Below, one piece after another: positions 14,974 to 56,942 of a stretch of DNA of 64,000 nt. The notes beneath the pieces are model-generated. The model was not told where the DNA came from. It did no database searches and saw nothing but the letters and a program-made list of their open reading frames with translations. This stretch comes from a virus. The first letter of the stretch is position 1; every line of letters begins with the position of its first letter. The translations under genes were made by a program, and so were the position numbers. Location: IMG/VR virus record IMGVR_UViG_3300046804_003503, positions 62,001 through 126,000 of that record. The stretch is one strand, 5' to 3'.

Positions 14974-14981
14974 GATAATAT

Positions 14982-19814: not shown

Positions 19815-20566
19815 TTACGCCACTCCTGTTGATAGCCTATTATATCTTGTGGAATTGAACTCTTGTCACGTTGGTAATCGTTTAGCGAATCAATGATATC
19901 ACTAGCGATTTTCTTAGAAACCTTCTTTCCGCCATCTACCTTAAAGGTAGCAAATAGCTTCTCTCCATCAATATTGAGTTGTTTACACTTTACATCAATA
20001 AAGTTGTATTGTGCATCACTCATTCTATCCTGCTCATTATACTCACCAGCACTAGAATCCTTAACAGAAGAAATCTGTCTTACAATCTTTGCTGTATCTT
20101 TCTTGGTCAATTCTTCTGCCGCAACGCCCTTAATCTTTAAAGCTTTGCGTAAAGCTCTTGCTTCTGCTCTGGTACTTGCAATAGCAACAGCATACGCACA
20201 GAATGTATCATCCGTATTGCCTTCCCATGAATCTGCTACTTCAGAGTATCTTACTCCATTGGCGAATTCAATAGTAAACACTACAGTCGCACGACCATGA
20301 TGATCATCACGCTGTACTGGAAAGACCTGTGTTGGACCACTGAAAACAATTGTGCCTAGCACAGCCTCTGCTACACGCCTTAAACCGGCAACTAGAGGAT
20401 GACCATCGACCATTTCTGTTTCGTGAAATAGTGTCATAGCATAGTCATGCCACTCATGACTAAGCATTGAAGGTTCATTTGACATAACTACATCCTTAAC
20501 TGAAGTATCTGTATTACTAGGAGTTGCTAATTCAACACCTTCAAAAATAGTTTCAACATCGTTCAT
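19811..20566 (-). CDS. Putative single-strand annealing / Rad52-like recombination protein
   Basis: A 251-residue protein. The central part (about residues 70-155) ends in a stretch of the form FCAYAVAIASTRAEARALRKAL, similar to the helix of Rad52/ERF-type phage annealing proteins in which a TRAEARALRKAL motif is typical. A C-terminal segment (MSDAQYNFIDVKCKQLNID and after) resembles the accessory tail of such proteins. If correct, it anneals complementary single strands during phage recombination, together with the SSBs and the RecA-like protein encoded in the window. The zinc-ribbon gene follows with ATGA overlap. The assignment rests on motif resemblance, so it is moderate. Confidence 0.55.
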   Translation of the reverse strand: MNDVETIFEGVELATPSNTDTSVKDVVMSNEPSMLSHEWHDYAMTLFHETEMVDGHPLVAGLRRVAEAVLGTIVFSGPTQVFPVQRDDHHGRATVVFTIEFANGVRYSEVADSWEGNTDDTFCAYAVAIASTRAEARALRKALKIKGVAAEELTKKDTAKIVRQISSVKDSSAGEYNEQDRMSDAQYNFIDVKCKQLNIDGEKLFATFKVDGGKKVSKKIASDIIDSLNDYQRDKSSIPQDIIGYQQEWRK

Positions 20567-21330
20567 ATTTCAATCTCTATATACCTTTCTGATTTTTTGG
20601 GGAATGACTTATCTATTGTACCCAAGCAATTCAAAATGTCAAGTCTCAACTTTTCTCTATCGGCTAAACATACTGAGTCAGATAAATTTTTTATTCGTAT
20701 AATGACCATCCCCTTACTTAATATAAGCCCACTTTTTTGTGTGTCGGCTTTGATTTGTTTTTGTAATTTTTCTTCACCCCAAATTGGCAGGAAGTGAGAA
20801 GGGCCGTCTACTTCTATTATAGTCTTGATCGACGGTATGTACATATCCAGTTCAAGGTCTTGGTTCTGGATAAGTTGTTTTTTGTGATATTCTACTTTAT
20901 ATCCAGCCCGAGTTATTTCTTCATACAAAAACTTTTCTAATTTAGAACCTTCTTTTCCAGCGACTTGTATGCTTTTAATGGCTGCACTCATCATTTTGTC
21001 TTTTTCTACATCGGACATTGTATTCCATCGTTTTTTTGATTGCTCAACCCTGCTAGAATACATTTCATCAGACATATTTTCCCAATATTTTTTTAGGCCC
21101 GAACTGATCTTAAGTTTTTCTTCTTTAGTTCTTGTTTTGCCATCGGTCGGATGTTTTGCAGTTCCATTTTCAATAGCATTTTTCTGAGCTTCACTTTTAG
21201 TTTTTAGCTCTACCCCACTCTTTATTAAAATGCGTCTAATGCGATTTGGATAAGTATTAAATTGTTCAGCAATTTCATATGTACTTTTATGCTGTTTGGT
21301 ATACATCATTACTATTTGATTTGTATTCAT
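20563..21330 (-). CDS. HTH plus PD-(D/E)XK/Vsr-like endonuclease, possible homing endonuclease
   Basis: A 255-residue protein. Residues about 8-40 form a helix-turn-helix (KSTYEIAEQFNTYPNRIRRIL). A basic, Lys-rich linker with NUMOD-like character follows (KTRTKEEKLKISSGLKKYWE). The C-terminal domain has a Vsr/DUF559-like nuclease core: an early Glu (SKLEKFLYEEI), a strand Asp (LELDMYIPS) and the hallmark IIEVDGPSHF. This architecture is that of free-standing phage endonucleases that promote their own spread. The start has AGGA seven bases upstream and overlaps the preceding gene by 44 bases, which is longer than its neighbours and fits an inserted gene. It sits between the annealing-protein gene and the glycosylation cluster. 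Confidence 0.7.
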   Translation of the reverse strand: MNTNQIVMMYTKQHKSTYEIAEQFNTYPNRIRRILIKSGVELKTKSEAQKNAIENGTAKHPTDGKTRTKEEKLKISSGLKKYWENMSDEMYSSRVEQSKKRWNTMSDVEKDKMMSAAIKSIQVAGKEGSKLEKFLYEEITRAGYKVEYHKKQLIQNQDLELDMYIPSIKTIIEVDGPSHFLPIWGEEKLQKQIKADTQKSGLILSKGMVIIRIKNLSDSVCLADREKLRLDILNCLGTIDKSFPKKSERYIEIEI

Positions 21331-21772
21331 CTTTGCATCCTAATATTAAGTTGATTATGTCTTTAAAATTATCAGATATTCCGATTGGTTTCACTCCAGT
21401 TAATCTGTAGATCTCTTTTTCATCTTTTTCTGATCTACATATAATTTTGGCATTTTGTATAGATAGAATTAATCTAAGTATATTTGGATTTTCTTCCCAT
21501 CCATGATAGTAAAAAATATTAATGTTGTTAATTACTTTTAATGAGGTTATTAGAGAATCCAAGGAGGTTGTTATCAAATTTCCATTGAAACTCCACAGAT
21601 CTGCTGCATTAAACATTCCACATCTAGTATTATGTGGATTAAAGTCCACATCGTCATAAAATATACTCAGATCGCGTATGTCTTTATTGTGGACACTGTT
21701 TTGGACTAATTCGCTTATATGTCCTAGCTGTTCTCTGTCGGATAAACTAGATATGTATATTCCTAAATTCAT
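21287..21772 (-). CDS. Unknown protein at edge of glycosylation cluster
   Basis: A 161-residue protein. An ATG nine bases upstream (21781) also exists, but 21772 gives an ATGA overlap with the preceding gene like most neighbours. The sequence alternates hydrophobic strands and helices (LGIYISSLSD, NINIFYYHGW, AKIICRSEKDEKEIYRLTG), suggesting a Rossmann-like alpha/beta fold of the kind seen in GT-B N-terminal halves, but no nucleotide-binding motif is visible. No membrane segment. It is the last member of a run of sugar-transfer genes and may serve in that pathway; function is otherwise unknown. Confidence 0.6.
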   Translation of the reverse strand: MNLGIYISSLSDREQLGHISELVQNSVHNKDIRDLSIFYDDVDFNPHNTRCGMFNAADLWSFNGNLITTSLDSLITSLKVINNINIFYYHGWEENPNILRLILSIQNAKIICRSEKDEKEIYRLTGVKPIGISDNFKDIINLILGCKDEYKSNSNDVYQTA

Positions 21773-22503
21773 TGATCCCATGCTCCTGTCATTGTAGAAA
21801 AATAATTGTGTCCTATGTGATATTGTCTTTCAAAACCAGCCGATTGTAAGAATGGGTTTAAAGTAGACCCAATATCTAGATATGTATTTTCTGGATTATG
21901 TTCCGTTAACTGGTGACATAATATATTACCAAATGGACCGCAACAAAACAAAAATAATGCATTTTTTATCATACTTGAAACTTTTTTATATGTATCTATC
22001 ATATCCCAATTATATTCCCATGCATTGTTTTCTACTTTGCAAACCATATATGGAGCAAATGGTAGATTTTCTATTATTCCTTTACTGTTGCAGAATAACA
22101 CGACTTGTCTACTTTTATAAATAGGAACTATATTACTTAAATAATATTTATAATTGCTATTTACCCATATATCGGCCCAAGTCAAATGGTCTTCTTTCTG
22201 TTGACATACAGTTTTCATTTGTCTATGAGTTTCTAAACCAAATACATTGGTACATGTTATCCCTACAAAGTATCTTTCATTTTTGTACTGAAATGCATCT
22301 ATTAAAGCTTTTCTTTTAGATTGATCCATTGAATTAGATGGATCAAACCAAAATTCTTTATTGTTTATTTGCTGGTTACATATTACTGACCATTCACCAT
22401 CACAAAACTTAGAAAAACTAATATTTTCATTATTTTTGATTGCAGTTTCCAAAACTTTGATATCATCTCTATAATTTTTATTTGGCGGTGTAGTAAACCT
22501 CAT
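21769..22503 (-). CDS. GT-D fold (DUF1792-like) glycosyltransferase
   Basis: A 244-residue protein. Near residue 30 it has FSKFCDGEWSV, matching the FGDGE signature of the DUF1792 / GT-D glycosyltransferase domain, and near residue 195 it has FCCGPFGNILCHQL...TYLDIGS, matching the second conserved block (GP...IDIG) of that family. Known GT-D enzymes add sugars to glycoprotein glycans in Gram-positive bacteria. Here the acceptor is unknown. It is flanked by ATGA overlaps on both sides and belongs to a continuous cluster of sugar and methyl transferases. Confidence 0.65.
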   Translation of the reverse strand: MRFTTPPNKNYRDDIKVLETAIKNNENISFSKFCDGEWSVICNQQINNKEFWFDPSNSMDQSKRKALIDAFQYKNERYFVGITCTNVFGLETHRQMKTVCQQKEDHLTWADIWVNSNYKYYLSNIVPIYKSRQVVLFCNSKGIIENLPFAPYMVCKVENNAWEYNWDMIDTYKKVSSMIKNALFLFCCGPFGNILCHQLTEHNPENTYLDIGSTLNPFLQSAGFERQYHIGHNYFSTMTGAWDQ

Positions 22504-23141
22504 GTTACTTTTCTCTTTAATAGCAATTCTCTATTATCAAATCTTCCGGGGAATGATTTATTTCCATAAATCAAATCATGAGTACTGAGTATATAATCTA
22601 TAAGTTCGTTAAATTTTTGTTCTCCCATCTGCCAATGCATTTCTATAGCCAAATAATTGATTGGTGTTAAATCTTGATTCATAAAAATATCATATTCACT
22701 TATTTCGCAATCACACTTGCAATAATCAATATTTCTAAAGTTTACATGACTATAAATATCTTGAAGCGTAATACTATATACATCATTTATGCTATTATTG
22801 TCACTATTGTGTTCTAAGCTTATAATTTCCTTGCCCAAACAACTAGCGGCAGAAGATCCTGCTAATCTGTTTTCATGCATTAGCATAGTACAAAGCCCTC
22901 TAGTTTTTGATACGGCGTTGTTGTATCCATGTATATGACTATGATTTATACTGAAATCTTGACAAATATCAAAACAAGCTTTAATTGGTTCATAGTAATA
23001 AATTTCACTAAATATGTGATAACTTTGTTTTAGAAATGATCCAACATTGCTTCCAATATCTATAGCCAAGCCCCCCGCCACATCTCTTGGTATGATGTAA
23101 TTTCCTAGATTGTTTTTTGGTATTTGTAATAATTTATTCAT
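22500..23141 (-). CDS. FkbM-like SAM-dependent methyltransferase
   Basis: A 213-residue protein with a clear SAM-binding motif I near residue 27 (LAIDIGSNVGSFLK), followed by the acidic end of the second strand (YYYEPIKACF) and a later strand IDYCKCDCE. This arrangement matches the FkbM family, which O-methylates sugars or polyketides. Four bases overlap the next gene and eight bases overlap the previous one. In this context it probably methylates a glycan being assembled by the surrounding glycosyltransferases; methylation of another target cannot be excluded. Confidence 0.68.
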   Translation of the reverse strand: MNKLLQIPKNNLGNYIIPRDVAGGLAIDIGSNVGSFLKQSYHIFSEIYYYEPIKACFDICQDFSINHSHIHGYNNAVSKTRGLCTMLMHENRLAGSSAASCLGKEIISLEHNSDNNSINDVYSITLQDIYSHVNFRNIDYCKCDCEISEYDIFMNQDLTPINYLAIEMHWQMGEQKFNELIDYILSTHDLIYGNKSFPGRFDNRELLLKRKVT

Positions 23142-23892
23142 TTTCAGTTCCTCTAAGCGGTTTGTATCCTTGACTTAAAATAAAATTCCAATATGTATTC
23201 ATTCCGCGATTTGCTTCGTGGTTCCAAGAGATAGCAAATTGATCTTCTCCATATTGTTTGCCAGTATCTGGCTGAGAACCCCACAATGATTTGTCTTCTT
23301 TGGGATGAGGAGGAACATATGTTCCAAGTCCAAAATGCTTTTGTGCTACATAAGACAAATGCATATCTTCTCCATAATTCATTGGCAATTCAAATGGAGC
23401 TTCCGCCCAAAAAGCCCGTAGTATATCTTTATGGAAAAACCAGCAATGACAACCAATATCCACCTTGACAACATTTTCATTTGGATTGCACCATCCATAC
23501 GCGGTGTAACTATCTGGACCGGGATAATAATCTATTTTGCTTGGATTGGCTATAACACCCCTAGTTGTTAAAATTCCATTATATTTTTCTATTGTTGATA
23601 GACAATTTTCTATCCATCTTAATCCCGGTATTGTATCATCATCAATTATACATATGTAGTCGGTCCTAGCATTCAATGCTATGGAGAATCTCCCCCAAAC
23701 ACCATAATTCTCGCTAGATCTTATATATTTGCATCTAGACGTTACGCTTGGTGGAAATTCTATTTTTTTATCAGAATCATTGTGCCAAAAAATTATGTCA
23801 GAAGGTTTCTGAGTTTGATTTATTATAGCATTGTATTGTTGTTGTGCCGAATATGGGCGTTTGAACCCACTTAATATTACTGTTACGTTCAT
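23134..23892 (-). CDS. GT2-family (GT-A) glycosyltransferase
   Basis: A 252-residue protein with the GT2 layout: an N-terminal VTVILSGFKRP strand, a QxxYNAII helix, a WHNDSD segment, the metal and nucleotide-sugar binding IIDDDTIPG motif near residue 82, and a later LPMNYGEDMHLSYVAQK region that supplies the ED-type acceptor/base motif. GT2 enzymes transfer a sugar from a nucleotide sugar to an acceptor. No membrane segment is present, so it is cytoplasmic. The gene sits in the sugar-modification cluster and overlaps both neighbours slightly. Confidence 0.8.
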   Translation of the reverse strand: MNVTVILSGFKRPYSAQQQYNAIINQTQKPSDIIFWHNDSDKKIEFPPSVTSRCKYIRSSENYGVWGRFSIALNARTDYICIIDDDTIPGLRWIENCLSTIEKYNGILTTRGVIANPSKIDYYPGPDSYTAYGWCNPNENVVKVDIGCHCWFFHKDILRAFWAEAPFELPMNYGEDMHLSYVAQKHFGLGTYVPPHPKEDKSLWGSQPDTGKQYGEDQFAISWNHEANRGMNTYWNFILSQGYKPLRGTENE

Positions 23893-24692
23893 AATTTCTC
23901 GATATAACTTTCTAATTTACTAGAGATGTTTTTTGAAACTTGTGAAAGCATAGACTTCACTCTATTTAAACATGTATGTTTAGCCTTGACCGATGTTAAT
24001 AATTTTTGTTTTTTGAATATGCTATCTATTTTTTCTAAATCTTCATTTTTGTTTGTATCAAATGTTACTTTCGTTCCACTATAAATAGCATCAAATGACA
24101 ACTGTGTTCCTATGTAACTACTACCGCAAAAAACAATTTCATTATAATTACTGAATAAATTGCTCAACATAGTAATTGGCATAATAAAATCTACTTTATT
24201 TGTTAATTCCGTATTGTGAGAAGTAATATGATAAGTTCCACCATATTCTTTAATTTGATCTTCACTATCTACAAAAATCAATTTTTCTATGCTATATTTT
24301 TTTGAATCGCGGTTGAGAAATATATCAGCACCAGCAGGAATCAATATATTTTTGACTTTAGAACTAGCAATTTCATTTTGCCCAAAAAATACATAGTTTA
24401 TCTTATTGCTCTCTAAAAATTTCATTAATTTTTCGGCATCATCTTTTCCAACACCCGTTGTACTAATTAATAGCTTGATTTCTTTGTTTTCTATTAGATA
24501 AGAGATTAGATCTTTGGAAATATGCCCAGCATGAGTAATAAATACATCGGGCTTGAATGAGTCAAATGCGTCATATAAACTTTGATTGCTATCTAATATA
24601 CTAGATGTTTCATTGATCATATTCAGAGTAGCATTGACATAAAATGGTTCAGTTATCCAAGGTGTACTATAATTAGATATTAAAAATTTCAT
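23889..24692 (-). CDS. Probable GT-B-like glycosyltransferase
   Basis: A 267-residue protein with alternating strands and helices. The N-terminal half contains KPDVFITHAGHISKDLISYL, which looks like the first Rossmann half of a GT-B glycosyltransferase, and the C-terminal half contains EIVFCGSSYIGTQLSFDAIYSGTKVTFDTN, resembling the second half where the nucleotide sugar binds. The usual EX7E motif is not evident, so identification is tentative. It overlaps both neighbours in the sugar cluster. It could also be a polysaccharide biosynthesis protein of unknown chemistry. Confidence 0.5.
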   Translation of the reverse strand: MKFLISNYSTPWITEPFYVNATLNMINETSSILDSNQSLYDAFDSFKPDVFITHAGHISKDLISYLIENKEIKLLISTTGVGKDDAEKLMKFLESNKINYVFFGQNEIASSKVKNILIPAGADIFLNRDSKKYSIEKLIFVDSEDQIKEYGGTYHITSHNTELTNKVDFIMPITMLSNLFSNYNEIVFCGSSYIGTQLSFDAIYSGTKVTFDTNKNEDLEKIDSIFKKQKLLTSVKAKHTCLNRVKSMLSQVSKNISSKLESYIEKL

Positions 24693-25434
24693 GATTGTCC
24701 TTTATACTGTGATAGGTTTTTATATTGTTTATTTTATATATTGGAAATTTGTTTTCTATGCAAAAAATACTATGATTGTTTTTTAATAAGTCATTAATAG
24801 CCTCAAAAATAAATTTCTTTTTGCTATCTTGATTGTTCAAAAATTTCCTTAAAGTTTCTATTATTTCCTCTCCGCACAAGTACATTATTTCTGACCAAGT
24901 TTTATATGCACCAAACGAAAAATGTTCTGCAATATTATTTTGGTTAATATTTATTCCTATCTCTAGATTTTCTGACGGGTTTTTTTCTACTATAGCGCAT
25001 GTTTTATGGGTATCTATTAATGACAATGTTTTTTTGTTCACCAGCAAATTGCCATCTATGATTAATATTTTTTTGTTAAAAGTATTATTTATTGATATTC
25101 GTAATCCCTCGCAAGAATTGCATATATTAAACAGTTGATTTTCTACAATTCTAATATTATGATTTTTGTATTTTGATCTTATATATTTAGATATCTTTTC
25201 TCCATCAAATCCAACGCATAAAATAATTTCATTATTTGGAAAACACTTTTTTAGACAATCAAGCTGTGTATCTATCAATAATTTTTTGTCAATTTTTACC
25301 AATGAAGTTGGGCCATATGATTTCATTCTATATCCGGGTAAATCACACAAAATTACTATTGTTATTAATTCATCTATAGCATTAACAGGGTTTTCTGCTT
25401 TTGTACGTTTCTTTTTGTGTTTTATTTTAGTCAT
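24673..25434 (-). CDS. Sugar nucleotidyltransferase-like protein
   Basis: A 253-residue protein; an in-frame TTG at 25446 lies inside the preceding gene, so the ATG at 25434 is used. After a basic N-terminus it shows the layout of sugar-1-phosphate nucleotidyltransferases: a strand IVILCDLPGYRMKSYGPTSLVKIDKKLLIDTQLDCL (activation loop followed by the P-K-x-hydrophobic region), then NEIILCVGFDGEKI, and a central ILIIDGNLLV with the expected acidic residue. The loop is degenerate relative to the canonical GxGTRL, so activity is uncertain. If active it would supply an activated sugar to the neighbouring glycosyltransferases. Confidence 0.6.
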   Translation of the reverse strand: MTKIKHKKKRTKAENPVNAIDELITIVILCDLPGYRMKSYGPTSLVKIDKKLLIDTQLDCLKKCFPNNEIILCVGFDGEKISKYIRSKYKNHNIRIVENQLFNICNSCEGLRISINNTFNKKILIIDGNLLVNKKTLSLIDTHKTCAIVEKNPSENLEIGININQNNIAEHFSFGAYKTWSEIMYLCGEEIIETLRKFLNNQDSKKKFIFEAINDLLKNNHSIFCIENKFPIYKINNIKTYHSIKDNHEIFNI

Positions 25435-25435
25435 A

Positions 25436-26170
25436 TCAAAACTCAATATATAAATTACTTTTCTTGATTTGTGCTTCGACGTTAGTAAAGTTGATTTTAT
25501 AATCCATATATAAATTTGGATATAATAATCTACAGGCTAAAGTTGAGATAGCTATTTTATTATCTTGTTTGAAAATAATTCCTCTAATTAAATCATCATT
25601 TATTGCCTTGTTTATATTAGCTATAAAATCTAATATGCCCACATAGTTTGTTTCGTCTAAAATGATATGAAACATCCCTTTGCTTTTAGACAATATGGAA
25701 TATATATACTTTATTTTTTCAAGATACATAGAGATATTAATATTTGGACAACCATAAATAATATTTTTAATCAATTCTTTTTGACTGTGTTCCAAGTTAT
25801 ACGAATAAAATATGTTAATTTTACATCCGCTAGATGCTAATTTAGCAATATTTTGTATGTACTTCAACATATCGACATTTATATTATCACAATTTATTAA
25901 GATATCAAATTTGATTTTACATTCTTCTTTAGCCTTTTGTAGATTTTTTTCCCCATTGTTCCATGTTTCTGGTCTATATAAAGTACATGCTCTATTTATT
26001 ACGTAAAATTCTTTGTCATCATCGTATGCTGCTACAACGTTGTTTTTAAATTTTTCTATTCTATTGTCAAGACAACCAATTTGAGTCTTGTTTTTGTAAA
26101 TAGCAAATATGCATTCTTTACAACTGGTATGACTTGTATCACTAATTTTGTCTGATGGCATGTAATTCAT
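25436..26170 (-). CDS. Cys-motif protein with glycosyltransferase-like body
   Basis: A 244-residue protein. The first 65 residues carry four Cys in the pattern CKEC...GC...CTLYRPETW, probably binding a metal. The rest looks like a GT-A-type alpha/beta domain (IKFDILINCDNINVDMLKYIQNIAK, then GCKINIFYSYN and FHIILDETNYVGILDFIA), but lacks an obvious DXD motif. I recall similar Cys-headed proteins accompanying glycosyltransferases in environmental phages, though I cannot name the family. The start has AGGGA eight bases upstream; overlap with the previous gene is 29 bases. Confidence 0.5.
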   Translation of the reverse strand: MNYMPSDKISDTSHTSCKECIFAIYKNKTQIGCLDNRIEKFKNNVVAAYDDDKEFYVINRACTLYRPETWNNGEKNLQKAKEECKIKFDILINCDNINVDMLKYIQNIAKLASSGCKINIFYSYNLEHSQKELIKNIIYGCPNINISMYLEKIKYIYSILSKSKGMFHIILDETNYVGILDFIANINKAINDDLIRGIIFKQDNKIAISTLACRLLYPNLYMDYKINFTNVEAQIKKSNLYIEF

Positions 26171-26558
26171 ACGTAGATCCCTTTAGTGTTACTCTTTCTA
26201 CTTGAATGCCAACATCATTCAACTTATCAGCTAGCTCACTGCAATCATAAATGCTTTTTCTATTATGTAATATTCCATTGAATGTTGCACAATTTATATT
26301 CTTATTAATTAAATCCCTGCACATGCAATTTACTTCTATACCAGTTATTGTGACACTTCCATTGATCCTTAACAATGTTCTTATCTTTTTTATGATCTTG
26401 TCTATATTTTCATATGGGATTTGTTCTATTACATCTATCATTAATATATTGCTTATTGAATTATTTGGTGCATCTATATTTAGATCACCGTCATTCAAAA
26501 ACACAGGATTGTAACCGTCAATACAATCTGAAATATCATTTAATATTTGTATCTTCAT
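26142..26558 (-). CDS. Truncated class I methyltransferase-like protein
   Basis: A 138-residue protein resembling the second half of a class I SAM methyltransferase: ILMIDVIEQIPYENIDKIIKKIRTLL corresponds to the strand and helix after the post-I motif, and LRINGSVTITGIE to the next strand. The glycine-rich SAM-binding motif I is absent, so it may be a degenerate or accessory protein rather than an active enzyme. It overlaps both neighbours, consistent with being a functioning gene of the cluster. Function is uncertain. Confidence 0.5.
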   Translation of the reverse strand: MKIQILNDISDCIDGYNPVFLNDGDLNIDAPNNSISNILMIDVIEQIPYENIDKIIKKIRTLLRINGSVTITGIEVNCMCRDLINKNINCATFNGILHNRKSIYDCSELADKLNDVGIQVERVTLKGSTYELHAIRQN

Positions 26559-27550
26559 TTTGTTGATTCCTCATAAGCTAAATTAAATACTCCATTCCAA
26601 TTATCGATAAAAACTGTTTCAGCAAAATTTTGCTCTATAGTATGTCTTGCATTTTTTCCAATGTTTGATCTTAAGTCTTGATCATTTAACAATAATTCAA
26701 TATAAGATCTAAGCTCTTGTTCGTCATTAGATATGAATCCATTATATCCATTTTTGATTATTTCTGGTATCATACATGTTGCCGTAGAAACTACTGCACA
26801 TCCGCAAGACATAGCTTCTAATAAAGACATTGGTATAGGACTAAGAGTAGAACTATTAAAATATACAGAACATGAATTATATTCATCCGCTAATTCATCT
26901 ATATCTTTTGCCGCTTTAGACAGTCCAGCAGTATCACCAATCAATTTAACTTTTAAATCTTTAGTAACTCTTTTCCAACCGCTAAAGTTTAAACAATAGT
27001 CTCTATTTTGAAAATCATTTGCTACAGTAAGAACGCATCCATTTTTTTCTTTTACATCATTGGGCTTGAATTGATTTGTATCTATCCCGTGACGTATTAC
27101 GGATCCTTTAATGCCCCAAGCGGATCTTGAAAATTCAGAAATAAATACATTAATATTTCCCACCATCTGTTTCATATCATTTATTTGATTATTAGACATA
27201 GTAGATGGAGTTGGAAGAGTATGTTCTAAGCATATTATTGGAATACCAAGATGTCGATTTATATTTTGCGCCATTTGAAATTGACCAAATTTACTTTGAA
27301 CCAACAAAATGTCAAAGTTTAAAAATGGACACAATTGATTCTCTGGTAATATATGATAATTTATAGGAACACTAGTCTGATTAGTATTCCATTTTTTGCT
27401 ATTCGGCAGATTCAAAGCATAAAATTCATGGCCCGTTTTGCATAGTTCAGTTTCATATCTTTCATGCGTTGGAAAAGTAAGTATATTGTATTTATCTTTT
27501 TTTAATCTGTTGGCTGAATTTATTATAGTACTAGCATTTGTATTAATCAT
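26555..27550 (-). CDS. GT1/GT4-family (GT-B) glycosyltransferase
   Basis: A 331-residue protein with the C-terminal nucleotide-sugar domain of GT4 enzymes: MSLLEAMSCGCAVVSTATCMIPEIIKNGYNGFI near residue 235, containing the EX7E-type motif, and ending in a helix LRSNIGKNARHTIEQNF. The N-terminal half has a long acceptor domain (FDILLVQSKFGQFQMAQNI). Cytoplasmic retaining glycosyltransferase. It overlaps the neighbouring genes and belongs to a block of three GT-B genes in a row. Confidence 0.82.
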   Translation of the reverse strand: MINTNASTIINSANRLKKDKYNILTFPTHERYETELCKTGHEFYALNLPNSKKWNTNQTSVPINYHILPENQLCPFLNFDILLVQSKFGQFQMAQNINRHLGIPIICLEHTLPTPSTMSNNQINDMKQMVGNINVFISEFSRSAWGIKGSVIRHGIDTNQFKPNDVKEKNGCVLTVANDFQNRDYCLNFSGWKRVTKDLKVKLIGDTAGLSKAAKDIDELADEYNSCSVYFNSSTLSPIPMSLLEAMSCGCAVVSTATCMIPEIIKNGYNGFISNDEQELRSYIELLLNDQDLRSNIGKNARHTIEQNFAETVFIDNWNGVFNLAYEESTK

Positions 27551-28652
27551 TTAATAGTTCCTTTATCATATTCCCTACGCTTTGATATGAAAATTTCTGA
27601 GCTATTTCTATACCTTTATTACGATTTATTGTATCTCTATTTTCGTAGTAAAATCTCATCGCATCCTTCGTTTCTTCTTCATCTGGTACAAACCAAGATT
27701 CTCTTCCAGTGAATATATTTGAAAATGCAGCATCCGTGTGTTCGCAGATATTATATATGCCATTTATTAGCGTACCGGCATTTTTATCTGAAATATACTC
27801 TTTGGGACCACCTTCGTTACTACATATTGGAGTTTTACCAAAACACATGGCATCAAATGATGGTATAGACCAACCTTCGCCGTGAGTAACATTTACCATG
27901 CAGTCACATGCTTGATGCAACATATCTATTTCATTAGATGTCATATCATCAGTAATTATAATCTCATCATGGTAATCTTCTATTTTAGGATATATTCTTA
28001 GCGTTTGTTTTATAGAATTACACATATTTTTTAGCTGTTTACGTAAATCATCTGGATTTGCTCCGAATTTTTTGATCTTAAGTACTAAAGATACTGGTTC
28101 ATATTTGTGAAATTCACTATGAAAACATTTTATAACAGACTCTATATTTTTTCTATCATTTATATCAGCTATATAATAAAACTTAAATGTTCCATTTTTT
28201 TGACCAAAATTTATTTTTTTGTCATTTACACTATATTTGTCTAAATTAAATGCATGTGGTACATATCTTATGGATTTGAATCCATCTTTTGTCATGTTAT
28301 TTAATTGTGTATGATTAGGAACCCATATTTCATCCATAAGATCAAGACTAGATTTCCAATTGTTGTATTTCAATGTAGTAGACTCGCCCACGTAATATGC
28401 AATATTTTTTTTGAATTTTGATGTTCCAACTAGATGATGAGGCAAAAGATGTTGAATACAAAAATCAATATTATCTATTTTTTTAGACTCTAGTTCTTTT
28501 ATTTTTTCTGGTATATCAGAGAGTCTGGGCGTTAATTTTACATCTCTACATACTATGTCTATACCAGCTGAGTCAATAGCATGAATTAGGTCTATAGCTG
28601 CTTTTGACCAACCAGTTCCCTCTTTATAGTGGCCTATGTACAATACTTTCAT
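27543..28652 (-). CDS. GT4-family (GT-B) glycosyltransferase
   Basis: A 369-residue protein. A longer frame begins at 28697, but the ATG at 28652 forms ATGA with the preceding stop and begins with MKVLYIGHYKEGTGWSKAA, the typical GT-B start. Near residue 265 it has GEGWSIPSFDAMCFGKTPICSNEGGPKEYI, the donor-binding EX7E region. A central strand FKFYYIADINDRKNIESVIKCF begins the second Rossmann domain. It transfers a sugar to an unknown acceptor in the cytoplasm. It lies between two other GT-B genes. Confidence 0.82.
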   Translation of the reverse strand: MKVLYIGHYKEGTGWSKAAIDLIHAIDSAGIDIVCRDVKLTPRLSDIPEKIKELESKKIDNIDFCIQHLLPHHLVGTSKFKKNIAYYVGESTTLKYNNWKSSLDLMDEIWVPNHTQLNNMTKDGFKSIRYVPHAFNLDKYSVNDKKINFGQKNGTFKFYYIADINDRKNIESVIKCFHSEFHKYEPVSLVLKIKKFGANPDDLRKQLKNMCNSIKQTLRIYPKIEDYHDEIIITDDMTSNEIDMLHQACDCMVNVTHGEGWSIPSFDAMCFGKTPICSNEGGPKEYISDKNAGTLINGIYNICEHTDAAFSNIFTGRESWFVPDEEETKDAMRFYYENRDTINRNKGIEIAQKFSYQSVGNMIKELLND

Positions 28653-30319
28653 AGCATACCTCTGAGTTTTAGAATTTCCATTCTCTTGTTTTCCCAATAA
28701 TTTCTTCTATTGCATAGATATACCATTTGATCATACGCTATGTTAAAATCAAATGGATTTCTATTACTTTTTCCGTCGAACATAGCTGAACTTTCATTAA
28801 AATACATACCACCAGTTACTGATGTAGAATTATGATAAGTCAAGTCTCTTACCATTCTTGACTCAAAATAAGAATTTAATCTTTCTGGCTCATGAAGAAC
28901 TTCAGAAATTAACCATTTTGCTAGATTTTTGTGATTGATATTATCTGGAACTTTTTCTGGTTTTGGTGAGGGAGTTGCAATTCTTGGTGACATTTTCCAA
29001 TTTTCAAAATTGTTAGATATCTTTACACTATCAAAAAATTGTTCCCAAGCTTTTCCGCTCTTGTCCCATTGATAATGTTTTAGAAATGCTTGTCTAGTAT
29101 CAAAACCAAGTTTACTTCTAATACTAGAAGGTTGTTCTAAAAATTCTTTAAATTTGGCAGCAGCTAGGTGATTGTCAGGAACTGCTCTAAAACAACCAGT
29201 TTCTAATTCTTTATATAGAGCTTTTGGAGTAAGTGGAGTTCCTCCAAGATTTCTTACTACGCTCTCCATCGCTGAATAATCAGTAGCCATGATTGGAATC
29301 CCGCAAGCGGCAGCTTCAACCTGTGGTAATCCAAATCCTTCACAATTAGCGTACTGAACATACAAATCAAATAAGTTTATTATCTTTGCTAGATCTTCAT
29401 ATTCTACGCCATTTTTTACATTGGATAATGAAGCTCCAAACTGTCCAGTAAATGGAGATTGTGCCATTGCACCCTTAAATAATGATGGGAATGGTCGCCC
29501 AGTTTGCCCACATATATATGTAAAATATACTTTTGAAGACAATTGATATTGTTGTAATAATTCTGGTATATCCCATCCTAAATCTGGATAACTAGTGTGG
29601 CAATATAAGAAATACTTTGAGTTATCTTCGACGCTATCTAATAGAATTCTGAATGCTTGGAAAAGATCTGGATACAATTTTCTTCTTTGGTTACGCATGA
29701 CTGTACCAATTATTTTTGCTTCTGGGTCTATCCCCATGGACAGACGAAGACCGCTTTTGTCATTTATTGGCTGATATGCTGGATGTGCTGATGGTGGAGA
29801 AATACCAATATATTTTATTTTACCACCAGATTGTTGGTTCAATACTTCACCAGCCCACTCTGAATATGTTAAACAGGCATCTGCTGATTCATATGTCGCT
29901 ATCCACTGTCTAGCTTGAGGTCGTGCATCAACCGTTGGCATTATACACCATTTAAAATATGGCCTGAATGGAGATCTTTCTGCAAAGTCTAACATCCAAA
30001 AGTCTCTTATATCGCACACTATGTCTGGCATAAAATCCAAACATACGGATTCGAACATTAATTCGCCAAACTGTGCTATTGGATTTTGTGCGTATTGGTT
30101 TCGTTCTTCTTCTGAACAAGAATTATCTGGCACTACGCCATAAAATTTCCAAGGTATTTTTGATGCTCTTGGGTCATTACGTTCGCCGTATGATGCCATT
30201 TCGGCTAATTCATACTTGCCAGTACTATACAAATAATTTAATATTTCTCTAGTATACGTAGCATATCCAGTATTTAAAAATGTTGCTTCGCTACAAAATA
30301 ATACTCTTGGTTTTCTCAT
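28649..30319 (-). CDS. Large GT4-like glycosyltransferase
   Basis: A 556-residue protein, long for the family. It starts MRKPRVLFCSEATFLNTGYATY, a GT-B N-terminus, and carries the C-terminal donor-site motif NCEGFGLPQVEAAACGIPIMATDYSAME near residue 325. In addition a C-terminal extension of about 100 residues (HKNLAKWLISEVLHEPERLNSYFESRMVRDL onward) has no counterpart in the usual family and may bind an acceptor or partner. ATGA overlap with both neighbouring genes. Probably the largest cytoplasmic sugar transferase of the cluster. Confidence 0.82.
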   Translation of the reverse strand: MRKPRVLFCSEATFLNTGYATYTREILNYLYSTGKYELAEMASYGERNDPRASKIPWKFYGVVPDNSCSEEERNQYAQNPIAQFGELMFESVCLDFMPDIVCDIRDFWMLDFAERSPFRPYFKWCIMPTVDARPQARQWIATYESADACLTYSEWAGEVLNQQSGGKIKYIGISPPSAHPAYQPINDKSGLRLSMGIDPEAKIIGTVMRNQRRKLYPDLFQAFRILLDSVEDNSKYFLYCHTSYPDLGWDIPELLQQYQLSSKVYFTYICGQTGRPFPSLFKGAMAQSPFTGQFGASLSNVKNGVEYEDLAKIINLFDLYVQYANCEGFGLPQVEAAACGIPIMATDYSAMESVVRNLGGTPLTPKALYKELETGCFRAVPDNHLAAAKFKEFLEQPSSIRSKLGFDTRQAFLKHYQWDKSGKAWEQFFDSVKISNNFENWKMSPRIATPSPKPEKVPDNINHKNLAKWLISEVLHEPERLNSYFESRMVRDLTYHNSTSVTGGMYFNESSAMFDGKSNRNPFDFNIAYDQMVYLCNRRNYWENKRMEILKLRGML

Positions 30320-30981
30320 ACAAAAAATCCTGTTTCTTTATCTGTTCCGGGTGATGTTTTTTGGTAAGTTTGATATCTTGAAAATCCTATTAATGTATTT
30401 TTATATGTACAAGCCCATCTATTATTGAATGGAATTTCTTGTCCAATACTGATTAATTTGTTATTTTTGTTGTAATCTTTTGACACAATGTTTTCTTCAT
30501 TGAGATATGTTTTAATATTATTGTACATATCTCTGGTTGTATAATGAAATGTGTCATTGAATGATGATGGATCCATCAAATTTTTGATGCAATTTTTAAT
30601 AATGTCATGTTCCGCTTCACTATATAATAATGCTTGAAAAGTAGTATTTTTACAAGCCCCAGAATTAACGGTGAAGAATTCTAAGTTTTCTGGAATATAA
30701 TATGATATTGGTAATACATGTTCGATATCAATATCACAGTAATATCCACCGTACTTAAAGAGGTAACAATATCTAAAAAAATCTCCCTTATTACATCCAA
30801 GATTCAAGCTAGCAAAAAAATCACTATAAGAAGAATCGTACTCTTTTGAAAGAAATTTTACTGCGTCTTCATCTGTAAAAAATAAAATATTTTTGTCATT
30901 ATTTAGTCTTTTTATATTGTTAAGAACATAATTTGGGATATTATTGTCTTTATATGTCAGTATGATATTGTCTGGTATCAT
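30316..30981 (-). CDS. GT32-like (OCH1/capsular type) glycosyltransferase
   Basis: A 221-residue protein of the sugar-binding DXD family. The N-terminus (IPDNIILTYKDNNIPNYV) matches the IPKIIHQ-type start, and the core has CNKGDFFRYCYLFKYGGYYCDID near residues 80-100, where the DID is the DXD metal-binding motif. GT32 enzymes include mannosyl- and galactosyltransferases acting in capsule or O-glycan synthesis. Its ATG directly abuts the SSB stop, and it overlaps the next gene by four bases, so it starts the glycosylation block within the replication operon. Confidence 0.8.
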   Translation of the reverse strand: MIPDNIILTYKDNNIPNYVLNNIKRLNNDKNILFFTDEDAVKFLSKEYDSSYSDFFASLNLGCNKGDFFRYCYLFKYGGYYCDIDIEHVLPISYYIPENLEFFTVNSGACKNTTFQALLYSEAEHDIIKNCIKNLMDPSSFNDTFHYTTRDMYNNIKTYLNEENIVSKDYNKNNKLISIGQEIPFNNRWACTYKNTLIGFSRYQTYQKTSPGTDKETGFFV

Positions 30982-31293
30982 TCAATCCTCAAAATCATTA
31001 TGACAAAAATCAAACTCGTTTACTCTAAAAACTATATCTTGGTCATCTCTGCTGGGGTGTTTTGCTGATGCATTTATAACTAGTTTAGTACCTTTTGTAG
31101 CATATTTTTCTATAGTTTCTGCACCGGTATGCCACGCTTCGCACCGAATATAAGTTGGTATTCTATTTTTTTCACCATTCTTTGTTTTGCGGTATGTATA
31201 TACTACCATAACAAATTCAGCTAATACAACATCATCAACTATAGATATTCTTGGATTTTCTACTAGATATCCAGTGAAAGAACAAATATTCAT
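30982..31293 (-). CDS. ssb: Single-stranded DNA-binding protein (first copy)
   Basis: A 103-residue OB-fold protein. The N-terminus MNICSFTGYLVENPRIS and the following FVMVVYTYRKTKNGEKNRIPTYIRCEAWHTGAETIEKYATKGTKLVI are the typical SSB strands, including the WxxxAE and GxxlxxxG segments. It lacks the long acidic tail of bacterial SSB but ends in FDFCHNDFED, a short acidic aromatic tip like the tail that binds partner proteins. It lies immediately downstream of the polymerase genes. A second SSB gene is present at 59482-59814. Confidence 0.82.
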   Translation of the reverse strand: MNICSFTGYLVENPRISIVDDVVLAEFVMVVYTYRKTKNGEKNRIPTYIRCEAWHTGAETIEKYATKGTKLVINASAKHPSRDDQDIVFRVNEFDFCHNDFED

Positions 31294-31343: not shown

Positions 31344-32915
31344 TCAAATTTCATGGATTGTATCTACGATAAATGATGTATCTTTTTCGCTGACAGTTCC
31401 GCAGAATATCAAGTTGTTACCTTCGTATAAAATATACTTGTATTTTTCTTTAATTTTAGGGAATACTATTACACTATCTAATATGCACGTATCATCTTCT
31501 ATGGTCAAAAATGACATAACTTGCCCTTTAGATTCGCCCTTGGTGATAGTATAATCTGAAACTCTTTGTATATTAGCGACAATGCATAAATTTTTGCCGC
31601 GTTTTCCATTTATAATTTCCTTGCATGTAGTATTTGCCGCAGATGTGTCAGATGTTTCCACTTTTGTTATGCTAACTGGGCATCCCAAGAACTTGACTTC
31701 TTGATCTATTACCCAGCTTGGATCGTCATCTAAATCATATGGTGGATTTATTAAGAGTTGTATTTCATTTTCAATAGCTTGTTTTCTATCTACTTTACTA
31801 GTACCGCCACCATCTTTTTTTATTGGGGCTAAGTCTTTGAGACAATCTACAAATGTTGTCCACTGTTTGGATTTGTAATTTTCAATGACCCACGACTGTT
31901 CCGCTTTAGTTAAAGTTCTATATATTTCATAATCATATAGTGCTTTGTTTCTAGTTATATTGCTTGTTTTGCCTCTAAAAAATCCTATTGAGGCTAAAGC
32001 CTTAAAAGCAGTAGAACTTATCTTGGATGATACAAATAATAATATTTCTAACCATGTAAACTTATCAATAGTTTTATTTAATTCCTTCTCAGCTAAACTT
32101 ATTACTTCTAAAAGCTTATCTCCTGTAGCGCCCGTCAAAGACTTTACATCTTTAATTCCAAAATATATCTTGTTGTCTTTAATATTGAATTTTTTCTGAA
32201 AATTAGATATATTTGGAGTCTTAGTCTCTATATCAAACAATTTTGCTTCAGATATAAGTTCATATACTTCTTTCTGTGGATCTTGCTTTTCATTAGCATA
32301 ATACAAATATGATAAAAAGAACTCCTTTGTGTTGTGGGCTTTATAGTATGCACTCCAATAAGAACAGACGGCATAGGAAACGCTGTGAGATTTATTGAAT
32401 GCATAGCGAGAAGATTTTTCGATCCATCCAAATATCTGCTCTGCATCTTCTTTAGAAACAATTCCTACACGTTCTGCTCCTGCTAGGAATGATTTTTTTA
32501 CTTCATTCATGAGATCGGCCTTTTTCTTTCCAATGGCTTTACGCAGAACATCAGCCTCTTGTAAGTTAAATCCAGCTACTTTCTCTGCTATACGCATAGA
32601 TTGCTCTTGATATACTAATACTCCATATGTTGATTTTAATATATCCTCTAATATTGGATGTAAATAAGTCACATCTTCCCGACCGTGTTTTCTATCTACA
32701 TAGTGCTGGGTCATGCTTTTTCCATCTACAAAAGCTTTTAATGTTCCGGGTCTTATAATAGCTATTAATGCAGATAGTTCTTCTATATTCGTTGGAGCAA
32801 CTTTTTTAGCCCAAGATTTTCCAAGATTGCTTTCTAATTGAAAAACACCTTTTGTCTTACCTTCTGCAAACAATTTCCAAGTATCTTTATCGTCATAAGA
32901 TAAATTATTTGACAT
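31344..32915 (-). CDS. dnaE: DNA polymerase III alpha subunit, C-terminal half (split DnaE)
   Basis: A 523-residue protein corresponding to the part of DnaE after the palm's last catalytic Asp. It begins LSYDDKDTWKLFAEG and GVFQLES (residue about 22), followed by IIRPG, RKHGRE (about 72), YGVLVYQEQ, the GKKK fingers helix and FNKSHSVSYA (about 171), all hallmark DnaE segments. The last 90 residues form an OB-type domain. The tau-binding C-terminal domain is missing. The start at 32915 is set by GGTGAA just upstream; two earlier in-frame starts lie inside the exonuclease gene. Must act with the N-terminal half encoded at 33572-35203, since neither half alone holds both palm and fingers. No intein sequence is seen at the join. 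Confidence 0.9.
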   Translation of the reverse strand: MSNNLSYDDKDTWKLFAEGKTKGVFQLESNLGKSWAKKVAPTNIEELSALIAIIRPGTLKAFVDGKSMTQHYVDRKHGREDVTYLHPILEDILKSTYGVLVYQEQSMRIAEKVAGFNLQEADVLRKAIGKKKADLMNEVKKSFLAGAERVGIVSKEDAEQIFGWIEKSSRYAFNKSHSVSYAVCSYWSAYYKAHNTKEFFLSYLYYANEKQDPQKEVYELISEAKLFDIETKTPNISNFQKKFNIKDNKIYFGIKDVKSLTGATGDKLLEVISLAEKELNKTIDKFTWLEILLFVSSKISSTAFKALASIGFFRGKTSNITRNKALYDYEIYRTLTKAEQSWVIENYKSKQWTTFVDCLKDLAPIKKDGGGTSKVDRKQAIENEIQLLINPPYDLDDDPSWVIDQEVKFLGCPVSITKVETSDTSAANTTCKEIINGKRGKNLCIVANIQRVSDYTITKGESKGQVMSFLTIEDDTCILDSVIVFPKIKEKYKYILYEGNNLIFCGTVSEKDTSFIVDTIHEI

Positions 32916-33585
32916 ATAATTCACCATTAGCAAAGGCTTTGTCAAAATTCATATTTTGGTAAACAGCACGGTGGGTTTTCATGATTTTAATAAAAATATT
33001 AGCTTCATCTTTTACATCTTGTAGAGCATCATGAGCATTTTCCATATCTAGACCCATTCGCTGTCTCAATGAATCCATGCTTATTGATCTAACACTAGGA
33101 TCACTTTCTGTCCAAGCAAATATACTATCCATTATATCTATTTTGTAAACCTTACTAAAAAGTTTTTGCTGCTCTCTTTCCTTGTCCCAAGGTCCAAATT
33201 CTTTACAAAGTCTATTTATGATTATCATATCAAATCCAATAATATTAAATCCAACTGGTATTGGATTGTAAAATGCATCGCCCTTCCAGTTATATTGATC
33301 CACAAACTTTGTGAATTTAGACCATACTGATTTTAAAGATGGTGCTTCTTCTAGTTGCTCTCTAGTCTTTTTAGTTATCTTTAATGCTTCATTTTCTATC
33401 GGATCAAGTCCAGCTGCTATAGCTTTTTCATCATCAAATATTGGTTTGATTTCACTATTAAATTGACCTTTCATATGCAATGTGCGACCATCTAAAGCAA
33501 TTGCGGCTATTTGTGTTGGTTGTGTTCTATGTGGGTTGCGTGATCCAGTTTCAAAATCAAAAATAATATAATCACGATTTGCCAT
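32905..33585 (-). CDS. DnaQ-like 3'-5' proofreading exonuclease (DEDDh)
   Basis: A 226-residue exonuclease. Motif I is FDFETG (Asp10, Glu12), motif II is GFNIIGFD (Asn114, Asp119), and motif III is AHDALQD (His185, Asp190), giving a complete DEDDh active site. It is encoded between the two halves of DnaE, overlapping the upstream half by 14 bases and the downstream half by 11. Its role is presumably proofreading for that polymerase, as epsilon does for bacterial Pol III, with all three made from one transcript in order N-half, exonuclease, C-half. The degenerate PHP domain of the N-half makes a separate proofreading protein more important. Confidence 0.88.
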   Translation of the reverse strand: MANRDYIIFDFETGSRNPHRTQPTQIAAIALDGRTLHMKGQFNSEIKPIFDDEKAIAAGLDPIENEALKITKKTREQLEEAPSLKSVWSKFTKFVDQYNWKGDAFYNPIPVGFNIIGFDMIIINRLCKEFGPWDKEREQQKLFSKVYKIDIMDSIFAWTESDPSVRSISMDSLRQRMGLDMENAHDALQDVKDEANIFIKIMKTHRAVYQNMNFDKAFANGELYVK

Positions 33586-35295: not shown

Positions 35296-35817
35296 TCACA
35301 CTTGCAAAGTTAAGAAATTATCCAAACCCATTTGTTCAATCATCTTTAAAAATCCTTCATAGAGCTTGATACCGTCTTCGCTTCCTTGTAGTAATGGGAT
35401 CATTGTGTTAGCAGTGATCTCATCACCAACCGACCTCGCAGCAACAATGGTTGCCCTTTCTGCTAGCGATGCTTCTTGAACAGAATTCAGATTATATTGT
35501 ATCATAGCTAACATATCATGCCTTGTCCAAGTCGGAGGAGATACTGTTAATGGTTGATAATCTATATCAAAAAATTCTAATCTTTCTATATTTACAGCAG
35601 CATGTTCGTGTTCTTGTTGAGCATCTTCTTTTATAATAGCAGCGAGCTTTTTATATCCCCATCTTTCAAGATGAACAGCCTGTGCTGTTAATACGGTTGT
35701 CTGCTGCCAATGAATATTTAATGATTTTTTTAGTAGTTCTATTACTTGTTCACTAGAATAGTTTGTTACATCCTGTGCTATACTTTGCTTGCTTAATAAG
35801 TCATCTATTTTATTCAT
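35296..35817 (-). CDS. Bacterioferritin-like four-helix protein
   Basis: A 173-residue, Cys-free helical protein. By eye it aligns with bacterioferritin along its length: ...LERWGYKKLAAIIKEDAQQEHEHAAVNIERLEFF matches the second helix, and the end MIEQMGLDNFLTLQV matches the LIQKMGLQNYLQAQ C-terminus of E. coli Bfr. Bfr-type proteins oxidise and store iron at a diiron site. Here the second-helix Glu and His (EHEH) are kept, but the positions equal to Glu18, Glu94, Glu127 and His130 appear changed, so the ferroxidase centre is incomplete. The start has AGGAGA seven bases upstream. It is the last gene before the polymerase promoter. Role in iron binding, DNA protection or a non-enzymatic scaffold is open. 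Confidence 0.7.
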   Translation of the reverse strand: MNKIDDLLSKQSIAQDVTNYSSEQVIELLKKSLNIHWQQTTVLTAQAVHLERWGYKKLAAIIKEDAQQEHEHAAVNIERLEFFDIDYQPLTVSPPTWTRHDMLAMIQYNLNSVQEASLAERATIVAARSVGDEITANTMIPLLQGSEDGIKLYEGFLKMIEQMGLDNFLTLQV

Positions 35818-56573: not shown

Positions 56574-56942
56574 TTATTTAAGAAACACTTCGGATGGTTT
56601 TATGCACGGTTCTTCCCTGTCGTTATATGAGTGTAATAATTTTGCTTTTGTGTTTACATGTAACTCGCTCAAAAGTTTAACTAAATATTCTTGCTTATCT
56701 TCGCTGACCATAGCATTTTTTATGATTTGTATAGTATCAGCTATACAAGTATCTTTTGATAATGCATCTATAATATAGCTTAGTTGCTGAACACATTCAT
56801 TATTATACTCTTTTAATTCTACATCGACTATTACTGAGTCTGAATCTTTCATTGCTACATAACTAATTCGTGCCAATATTTCACCATCATCAGATTGCTC
56901 TTGTAGATTATTGTTTTTATTTTTTAAGAAGTTGAATAGCAT
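56574..56942 (-). CDS. Unknown small helical protein
   Basis: A 122-residue soluble protein beginning MLFNFLKNKNNN, with a strand-rich middle (ILARISYVAMKDSDSVIVDVELKEYN) and a helical second half. No domain, Cys cluster or membrane span is recognised. It overlaps the glycosyltransferase gene upstream by 26 bases, showing it belongs to the same operon. Confidence 0.55.
   Translation of the reverse strand: MLFNFLKNKNNNLQEQSDDGEILARISYVAMKDSDSVIVDVELKEYNNECVQQLSYIIDALSKDTCIADTIQIIKNAMVSEDKQEYLVKLLSELHVNTKAKLLHSYNDREEPCIKPSEVFLK

Follow-up and report, generated by a model that had tools for sequence, protein, structure and literature searches.

A probable glycan-assembly island placed with the replication genes in a family of uncultured phages

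Phage glycosyltransferases are usually regarded as optional extras. A run of such genes lying among replication genes in the virus record IMGVR_UViG_3300046804_003503 raises the question of whether the run is a lasting part of the genome, what it makes, and on what acceptor. We analyzed a window of 64,000 nucleotides (positions 62,001 to 126,000 of that record), in which a sequence-only reading had described an eleven-gene cluster for sugar activation, glycosyl transfer and methyl transfer.

Layout and gene content of the locus

The interval 21287-30981 is a real run of overlapping minus-strand genes between SSB and a nuclease-like gene (Table 1). It is filled by twelve ORFs rather than eleven, and neighboring ORFs are indeed tightly packed, with gaps of 0 to -49 bp. 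The longest stop-free runs in the island reach 562 codons, versus a maximum of 126 across 200 shuffles. SSB and two polymerase ORFs lie on the same strand, with the island directly downstream. Two further glycosyltransferase genes occur in the window away from the island, at 37217 and 56917.

Table 1. Island genes and their two borders, listed from the SSB side (coordinates in the window)
Feature	Coordinates	Strand	Evidence and occurrence
SSB, left-hand border	30982..31293	-	Pfam SSB E 3.7e-9; precedes GT556 in nearly all loci
GT32-type glycosyltransferase (DXD), accessory, SSB/GT556 slot	30316..30981	-	Pfam Gly_transf_sug E 4.9e-11
GT556, GT4-type GT-B with conserved C-terminal extension, core	28649..30319	-	Pfam Glycos_transf_1 E 3e-10
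GT384, GT4-type GT-B, core	27543..28697	-	Pfam E 2.2e-10; 93/93 loci
GT331, GT4-type GT-B, core	26555..27550	-	Pfam E 2.3e-19; 93/93 loci
MT138 (MTlike138), short class-I methyltransferase-like, core	26142..26558	-	Weak Pfam matches; 93/93 loci
CYS, four-cysteine N-terminus and weak GT-A-like C-terminal domain, core in most relatives	25436..26170	-	
NTASE (NTlike), nucleotidyltransferase-like, DUF6564 (nucleotide-sugar-like), core	24673..25446	-	Pfam E 6.6e-8
GTBL (GTlike267), conserved 267-aa protein, core	23889..24692	-	93/93 loci
GT2 glycosyltransferase (DDD), common accessory	23134..23892	-	Pfam E 8e-8
FkbM-type methyltransferase, accessory	22500..23141	-	Pfam Methyltransf_21 30.8 bits vs cut-off 22.7
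GT-D-like glycosyltransferase, accessory	21769..22503	-	GT-D type PDB profile matches; 16/70 distinct loci
S164, conserved 164-aa protein beside nuclease gene	21287..21781	-	34/70 distinct loci
nuc255, weakly DUF559/nuclease-like, right-hand border	20563..21330	-	Pfam DUF559 E 0.07 only; adjoins island in relatives

Family assignments above curated cut-offs were obtained for the ORFs at 30316, 28649, 27543, 26555, 23134, 22500 and 24673, which include the GT32, the GT2, the three GT-B enzymes and the FkbM methyltransferase named in the sequence-only reading. GT556 (556 aa) retains an invariant EX7E motif (68/68) and is the most conserved core gene; its predicted structure, of moderate quality (pLDDT 65.5), resembles MshA, BshA and the chlorovirus protein 3oy2, and we propose that it is the first, priming transferase. 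The EX7E positions are mostly kept in GT384 (E in 58/70, then D or E in 68/70), and in GT331 the first Glu is replaced by Ser (66/70) and the second is kept (67/70). NTASE falls in DUF6564 and matches IspD, LicC and GlmU in PDB profiles; of a nucleotidyltransferase it shows the fold signature only. Its canonical catalytic residues are not conserved: the Lys position after the GxGxRM loop is I, T, L or V, with K in only 2 of 71 sequences, and 25 of 71 have the metal-binding Asp. The proposal that the phage has its own sugar activation is thus unsupported for this gene.

The product of MT138 had been taken for a truncated methyltransferase. It measures 138-144 aa in every relative and is therefore a conserved short protein, not the remnant of a decayed gene; SAM-binding motif I is absent both from the window protein and from the alignment of relatives, and PDB profiles match it weakly (E 0.13 and up). 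CYS carries four cysteines that are invariant where aligned, and its predicted structure (pLDDT 79) matches GT-A and cytidylyltransferase folds in Foldseek (E 4e-5); kinship with NTASE was rejected, with no profile similarity between the two. Neither candidate for a further GT-B-like protein sustains that label, since GTBL has no Pfam or PDB match, S164 has no family match, and the two show no mutual similarity. Of the seven core proteins, three lack a confirmed catalytic role.

A fixed core and exchangeable cassettes

The island is a fixed part of the genome in a family of phages that are uncultured and, for the most part, water-borne. GT556 directly follows SSB in 65/65 polymerase relatives with enough downstream DNA, drawn from the nearest 80 of the 419 polymerase relatives found, so that no close relative that could be assessed is missing the cluster. 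Gene order is shared as well: GT556-GT384-GT331-MT138-(CYS)-NTASE-GTBL is identical in the 93 loci (68 distinct) that span GT556 to GTBL, with CYS present in 87/93 and absent or relocated in 7. Mean pairwise identity puts GT556 (68.7%) level with the polymerase (63.9% for polymerase C); SSB stands at 55.0%, and the other six core proteins are more variable (24-53%). The sequence-only reading of an extended pathway for glycan synthesis and methylation among the replication genes is supported, and in this family the cluster is obligate.

DNA-level and tblastn searches with the region, GT556 or NTASE returned no related isolated phage, and the terminase is only ~25-28% identical to its counterparts in Microcystis phage MaeS and Bacillus phages. 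SAR202 and Verrucomicrobiales were considered as hosts and rejected; the matching MAG contigs look like binned phage contigs, and we therefore claim no host.

By contrast with the core, the GT32, GT2, GT-D and FkbM genes are exchangeable between relatives. NTASE served to define a set of 87 viral relatives. Among 70 distinct NTASE loci, GT32 occurs in 3 (and in several polymerase-selected loci), GT2 in 26 and FkbM in 2. The DDD motif of GT2 is kept in 27/27, and the FkbM assignment is also made by NCBIfam (fkbM_fam, 44.6 versus a cut-off of 37.7). The gene at 21769 had been called a GT-D enzyme: its DGE motif is invariant (17/17), and its profile, run against every PDB sequence, matched only 4pfx/4phr GalT1, both GT-D, but at E 0.02 and with no Pfam match, and we retain it as GT-D-like. 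In relatives the slots are filled by FkbM and TylF methyltransferases, other glycosyltransferases, UDP-GlcNAc 2-epimerase, CMP-sugar synthetases and sugar aminotransferases. Slot length ranges from 378 to 6754 bp across loci, and the 335 accessory ORFs form 108 clusters, many in glycan or sugar-nucleotide families (GT2, FkbM, TylF, CTP_transf_3, DegT, Epimerase_2, GT11, FdtA).

A proposed pathway and its acceptor

These results support a multi-step glycan-building and methylating cluster sited with the replication genes, and we consider it very probable that the locus is a glycan-assembly island. On the best reading, soluble enzymes would assemble a heteroglycan that is methylated and varies between strains. 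The island enzymes would work in the cytoplasm of the infected cell, where GT556, the slowest-evolving of them, would put the first sugar on an invariant phage acceptor. GT384 and GT331, together with MT138, CYS, NTASE and GTBL, would lengthen a shared inner chain or help to build it, and the cassette genes (here GT32, GT2, GT-D and FkbM) would finish a strain-specific, often methylated outer part. In relatives this finishing may fall to epimerases, CMP-sugar synthetases, aminotransferases and O-methyltransferases, families that are directly recognized and whose reactions are presumed. Nucleotide sugars would be mostly host-supplied, with Gmd (GDP-mannose 4,6-dehydratase) coming from elsewhere in the phage genome: a second sugar cluster outside the window encodes Gmd, two GT2 and one methyltransferase. 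Gmd was found in the phage's own genome and in 6 relatives (E 1e-167 or better); no partner reductase forming GDP-fucose or GDP-rhamnose was seen.

The sequence-only reading had named virion proteins, hypermodified bases and the host surface as possible targets; we favor the first and disfavor the other two. That the acceptor is a virion protein, suggested by elimination and analogy, we regard as about evenly balanced. If so, the glycan would serve as a variable coat or shield, as in chloroviruses, in which soluble, early-expressed glycosyltransferases, GMD and O-methyltransferases produce a capsid-protein glycan with a conserved core oligosaccharide and variable ends (PMC9614988). Compared with the PBCV-1 set (A064R, A061L, A111/114R, A118R GMD, A295L GMER), the phage likewise encodes soluble glycosyltransferases, methyltransferases and GDP-mannose 4,6-dehydratase, and one of the solved structures closest to the GT556 model is a chlorovirus GT-B, 3oy2. 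The two systems differ in realm and host, their enzymes are mostly non-homologous by sequence, and no GMER partner was seen in the phage; the chlorovirus acceptor is capsid protein, whereas a virion acceptor in the phage is a candidate. Were the glycan on virions, it would be the phage equivalent of the glycans on chlorovirus capsids and would give rise to particle serotypes. More tentatively, the island could be a phage serotype locus: every family member would carry a virion glycan with a universal inner chain and swappable cassettes, a cytoplasm-made, O-antigen-like coat kept as strictly as the replisome. Counting against a virion acceptor are the position of the island among early replication genes and not virion genes, a sugar module at such a location in RB69 that serves DNA arabinosylation (PMC6024577), the absence of any observed Gmd partner, and the three core proteins without confirmed catalysis.

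It is unlikely, in our view, that the oligosaccharide is instead placed on modified phage bases, during or just after replication, and blocks restriction and CRISPR. The island does lie between SSB/polymerase and recombination-like genes, as the RB69 module lies between polymerase and UvsX (PMC6024577); the phage encodes dNMP kinase, dCMP deaminase, dUTPase and RNR; GT556 matches the polymerase in conservation; and GT-B DNA transferases occur in other phages. However, PF00303, the thymidylate-synthase family that includes dCMP/dUMP hydroxymethylases, is absent from the phage's own record and from 14 relatives, and among 9 additional relatives it occurs only in the two without ThyX, where it is therefore probably thymidylate synthase (ThyA). 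This distribution disfavors hypermodified bases. No TET/JBP-type base hydroxylase was matched, in a search whose positive control did not work, and no other base-modification family was found among the genome ORFs scanned. T-even phages and RB69 share with the island GT-B transferases and a sugar module among replication genes, but the island has far more transferases, along with methyltransferases and variable cassettes. A DNA-borne glycan would have to be anchored by a chemistry that is as yet unknown.

The resemblance of the GT556 model to MshA and BshA, makers of small glycosides and its closest solved relatives, could point to glycosylation of a compatible solute or other small molecule, or to a modified non-structural macromolecule of host or phage (e.g., a regulatory protein or RNA). 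We find this rather improbable: many GT-B enzymes score alike against a model of only moderate quality, and seven core genes with variable methylation and deoxysugar genes far exceed the needs of a simple glycoside.

Remodeling of host LPS or capsule to exclude other phages, the interpretation proposed for pelagimyophage glycosyltransferases (PMC7029224), would account for the resemblance of the accessory genes to O-antigen locus genes. We hold it to be quite improbable because membrane glycan machinery is missing: no cluster protein has a TM-like segment, only 8 of the 335 accessory ORFs have one, none of the ORFs of at least 120 aa in the stretches of the phage's own genome that were covered has three or more, and no flippase, glycan polymerase, export or lipid-priming phosphotransferase protein was seen. 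Such modules are, moreover, normally optional, whereas the island is fixed in the family. Bacterial O-antigen and capsule loci combine conserved genes with exchangeable glycosyltransferase, sugar-nucleotide and methyltransferase cassettes. The island shares that organization, but neither their TM flippase, polymerase, export and lipid-priming proteins nor the membrane flippase and membrane glycosyltransferases of Gtr-type serotype-converting modules were seen. A chance mosaic of unrelated auxiliary genes without one shared product, as the wide differences in accessory genes might suggest, is scarcely credible, being contradicted by the single order of the core in 93/93 loci (apart from CYS) and by intact catalytic motifs in the recognized transferases.

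Relation to other aquatic phages

What sets this locus apart is that seven genes for a putative glycan core pass down the whole family together with the replication genes, while the finishing enzymes are swapped among relatives. The island family offers a catalog of new transferases and methyltransferases, and invariant GT556 provides a single enzyme handle for finding the acceptor, whichever reading holds. Pelagimyophages are aquatic phages with many glycosyltransferases and deoxysugar genes (PMC7029224), but in these T4-like phages and in cyanomyophages the glycosyltransferases occupy a hypervariable tail-fiber region or scattered small clusters, unlike the core described here, which is fixed within a Pol III-type replication module. 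Four glycosyltransferase orthogroups are among the core orthogroups of moraphages, which are large aquatic phages of different genome size and lineage, and the available portion of that report describes no ordered glycan island (PMC12619734). Gmd is known from cyanophages and lake phages (PMC10611076).

The island and its genes

The minus-strand run at 21287-30981, within a virus record of 161,058 bases, comprises twelve ORFs ranging in length from 138 to 556 codons, whose neighbours abut or share up to 49 bases; from these overlaps, the island genes are likely to be co-transcribed. The longest stop-free run is 562 codons, far above the maximum of 126 in shuffled sequence (n=200), and the ORFs are thus genes rather than chance. 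Families were called from Pfam matches above cut-offs.

Features of the island and its surroundings (window positions or ORF starts, except where record positions are stated)
Feature	Position	Strand	Remark
Second SSB	59482-59814		distinct from island-side SSB
GT-B	56917-58002	-	same minus-strand gene block, outside island
GT2	37217-38089	-	same block, outside island; kept in most close relatives
Ferritin-like gene	35296-35817		limited to some close relatives
DNA polymerase III alpha subunit, two ORFs	33572-35203, 31344-32945	-	upstream of island; block 31344-35203
Exonuclease-like ORF	32905-33585		between the polymerase ORFs
SSB	30982	-	upstream of island
GT32 sugar-binding region	30316	-	Pfam
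GT4-type GT-B (GT556, GT384, GT331)	28649, 27543, 26555	-	Pfam
MT138	26142	-	like part of a class-I methyltransferase
CYS	25436	-	four cysteines
NTASE	24673	-	DUF6564 (Pfam)
GTBL	23889	-	no family assignable
GT2	23134	-	Pfam
FkbM methyltransferase	22500	-	Pfam
GT-D-like protein	21769	-	no Pfam match
Last island ORF	21287	-	no family assignable
Weakly nuclease-like gene	20563-21330		downstream of island
Recombination-like gene	19811		downstream of island
Second sugar cluster (L018)	record 14247-17165		next to terminase

Transferases, recognised or probable, thus account for six of the twelve ORFs and a recognised methyltransferase for one; the other five encode conserved proteins whose activity is uncertain. 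For the GT-D-like protein, a PDB profile search matched solely the two GT-D type structures (E 0.02), and the DGE motif holds in 17/17 relatives. MT138 lacks SAM motif I, and its constant length (138-144 aa in every relative) marks it as a conserved short protein. All four cysteines of CYS are invariant, and matches of its predicted model (pLDDT 79) are GT-A/cytidylyltransferase-like but weak (E 4e-5, TM about 0.4). The predicted model of GT556 (pLDDT 65.5) resembles MshA, BshA, one chlorovirus GT-B and other viral GT-Bs, likenesses that do not point to one acceptor.

NTASE bears a nucleotidyltransferase signature, with PDB profile matches to IspD, LicC and GlmU. The catalytic lysine position is occupied by Ile, Thr, Leu or Val (Lys in 2/71 sequences), and the metal aspartate is retained in 25/71. 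The motif RMKSYG is almost invariant, indicating that the protein is under selection, but not as a canonical pyrophosphorylase. The second sugar cluster of this genome, outside the window, contains a GDP-mannose 4,6-dehydratase, two GT2 and a methyltransferase; the dehydratase also occurs in six relatives (E 1e-167 or better). In two of the related records (G009 and G010), a single in-frame TAG interrupts the long frame of its gene, which is open elsewhere; error, decay or recoding may account for it.

A fixed core and exchangeable cassettes

Searching with the GT556 protein, we found 14 relatives in IMG/VR and three in MAG contigs. A terminase is common to 13 of the 14 relatives tested (68-92% identity; the last is a weak match at a contig end), and the GT556-bearing relatives therefore form one phage family, with genomes reaching about 176 kb. 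No isolated relative was found in the phage collection. The contigs carrying the same island in MAGs labelled SAR202 and Verrucomicrobiales (L021, L022, L023) probably derive from phages and were binned with those genomes.

As an independent test, we began with the polymerase C ORF and took the 80 nearest of 419 matches. Of these, 15 have too little downstream DNA to score, and GT556 directly follows SSB in all 65 others. Polymerase-exonuclease-polymerase order (polN-exo-polC) is kept in 79 of 80 relatives. Pooling the first set with one based on NTASE (80 of 87 matches, and hence selected for NTASE presence) gave 93 loci spanning GT556 to GTBL, or 68 distinct loci once repeats were taken out. 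The order GT556-GT384-GT331-MT138-NTASE-GTBL is kept in 93/93, with CYS missing or moved in seven. Over the same locus pairs, mean identity is 68.7% for GT556; polymerase C reaches 63.9% and SSB 55.0%, and the other six core proteins lie at 24-53%.

The interval from GTBL to the nuclease-like gene varies from 378 to 6754 bp. The 335 accessory ORFs of the distinct loci form 108 clusters, and Pfam matches among 97 cluster representatives include GT2, GT11, FkbM, Methyltransf_24, TylF, CTP_transf_3 (CMP-sugar synthetase type), DegT aminotransferase, UDP-GlcNAc 2-epimerase, NAD epimerases, FdtA, PRK-type kinase and class II aldolase. The accessories of the window recur unevenly across distinct NTASE loci (GT32 3/70, FkbM 2/70, GT-D 16/70, GT2 26/70). 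Some lineages have inserts of aldehyde and saccharopine-type dehydrogenases and a dTDP-glucose dehydratase-like SDR; in L012, L013 and L021, the aldehyde dehydrogenase and saccharopine-dehydrogenase-like genes lie between GT384 and GT331. The nuclease-like gene at the border of the variable slot, with weak DUF559 likeness, is highly conserved; speculatively, it might help cassette exchange.

Glycosyltransferase islands occur in pelagimyophages and cyanophages (PMC7029224), and in moraphages the core orthogroups include GTs (PMC12619734). In the open-licence literature, we found no phage family described as having a fixed glycan core of ordered, replication-linked genes.

Proposed pathway and acceptor

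The gene set, its fixed order, the exchangeable cassettes and the intact catalytic motifs of GT556, GT2 and the GT-D-like protein are directly seen. Since GT556 is the sole core protein evolving like the replication enzymes, we suggest that it makes the first linkage; the remaining core proteins would elongate a shared inner chain or aid its synthesis, and cassette enzymes would decorate and methylate that chain. The island works like a virus-encoded autonomous glycosylation system, and is at most a candidate member of the chlorovirus, T-even, serotype-converting or O-antigen type.

The cluster proteins have no TM-like segment, 8/335 accessory ORFs have one, and the own-genome stretches examined contain no ORF of at least 120 aa with three or more. 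This scarcity makes it unlikely that phage proteins assemble the glycan on a lipid and export it. The glycan is probably attached to something soluble in the cytoplasm, either a phage protein or DNA.

A virion protein is the leading candidate, at about even chances, given the close functional parallel with chloroviruses, whose capsid protein carries a glycan with conserved core and variable ends, the work of early GTs that are soluble, together with GMD and O-methyltransferases (PMC9614988). Glycosylation of DNA, which the replication setting of the island would fit, as in the RB69 sugar module (PMC6024577), is rather improbable: a thymidylate-synthase-family enzyme is absent from this record and 14 relatives, and present in 2/9 further relatives, precisely the two without ThyX, and the other ORFs scanned include no base-modification family. 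A TET/JBP search, run without a working control, gave no match. A small molecule or other target is somewhat less probable still, modification of the host surface slightly less again, and other readings, including a chance mosaic, take the small remainder.

Across records G000-G025, ThyX and ThyA look mutually exclusive within the family. In G017, the match to ThyA is split inside a single 592-aa frame, suggestive of an insertion such as an intein.
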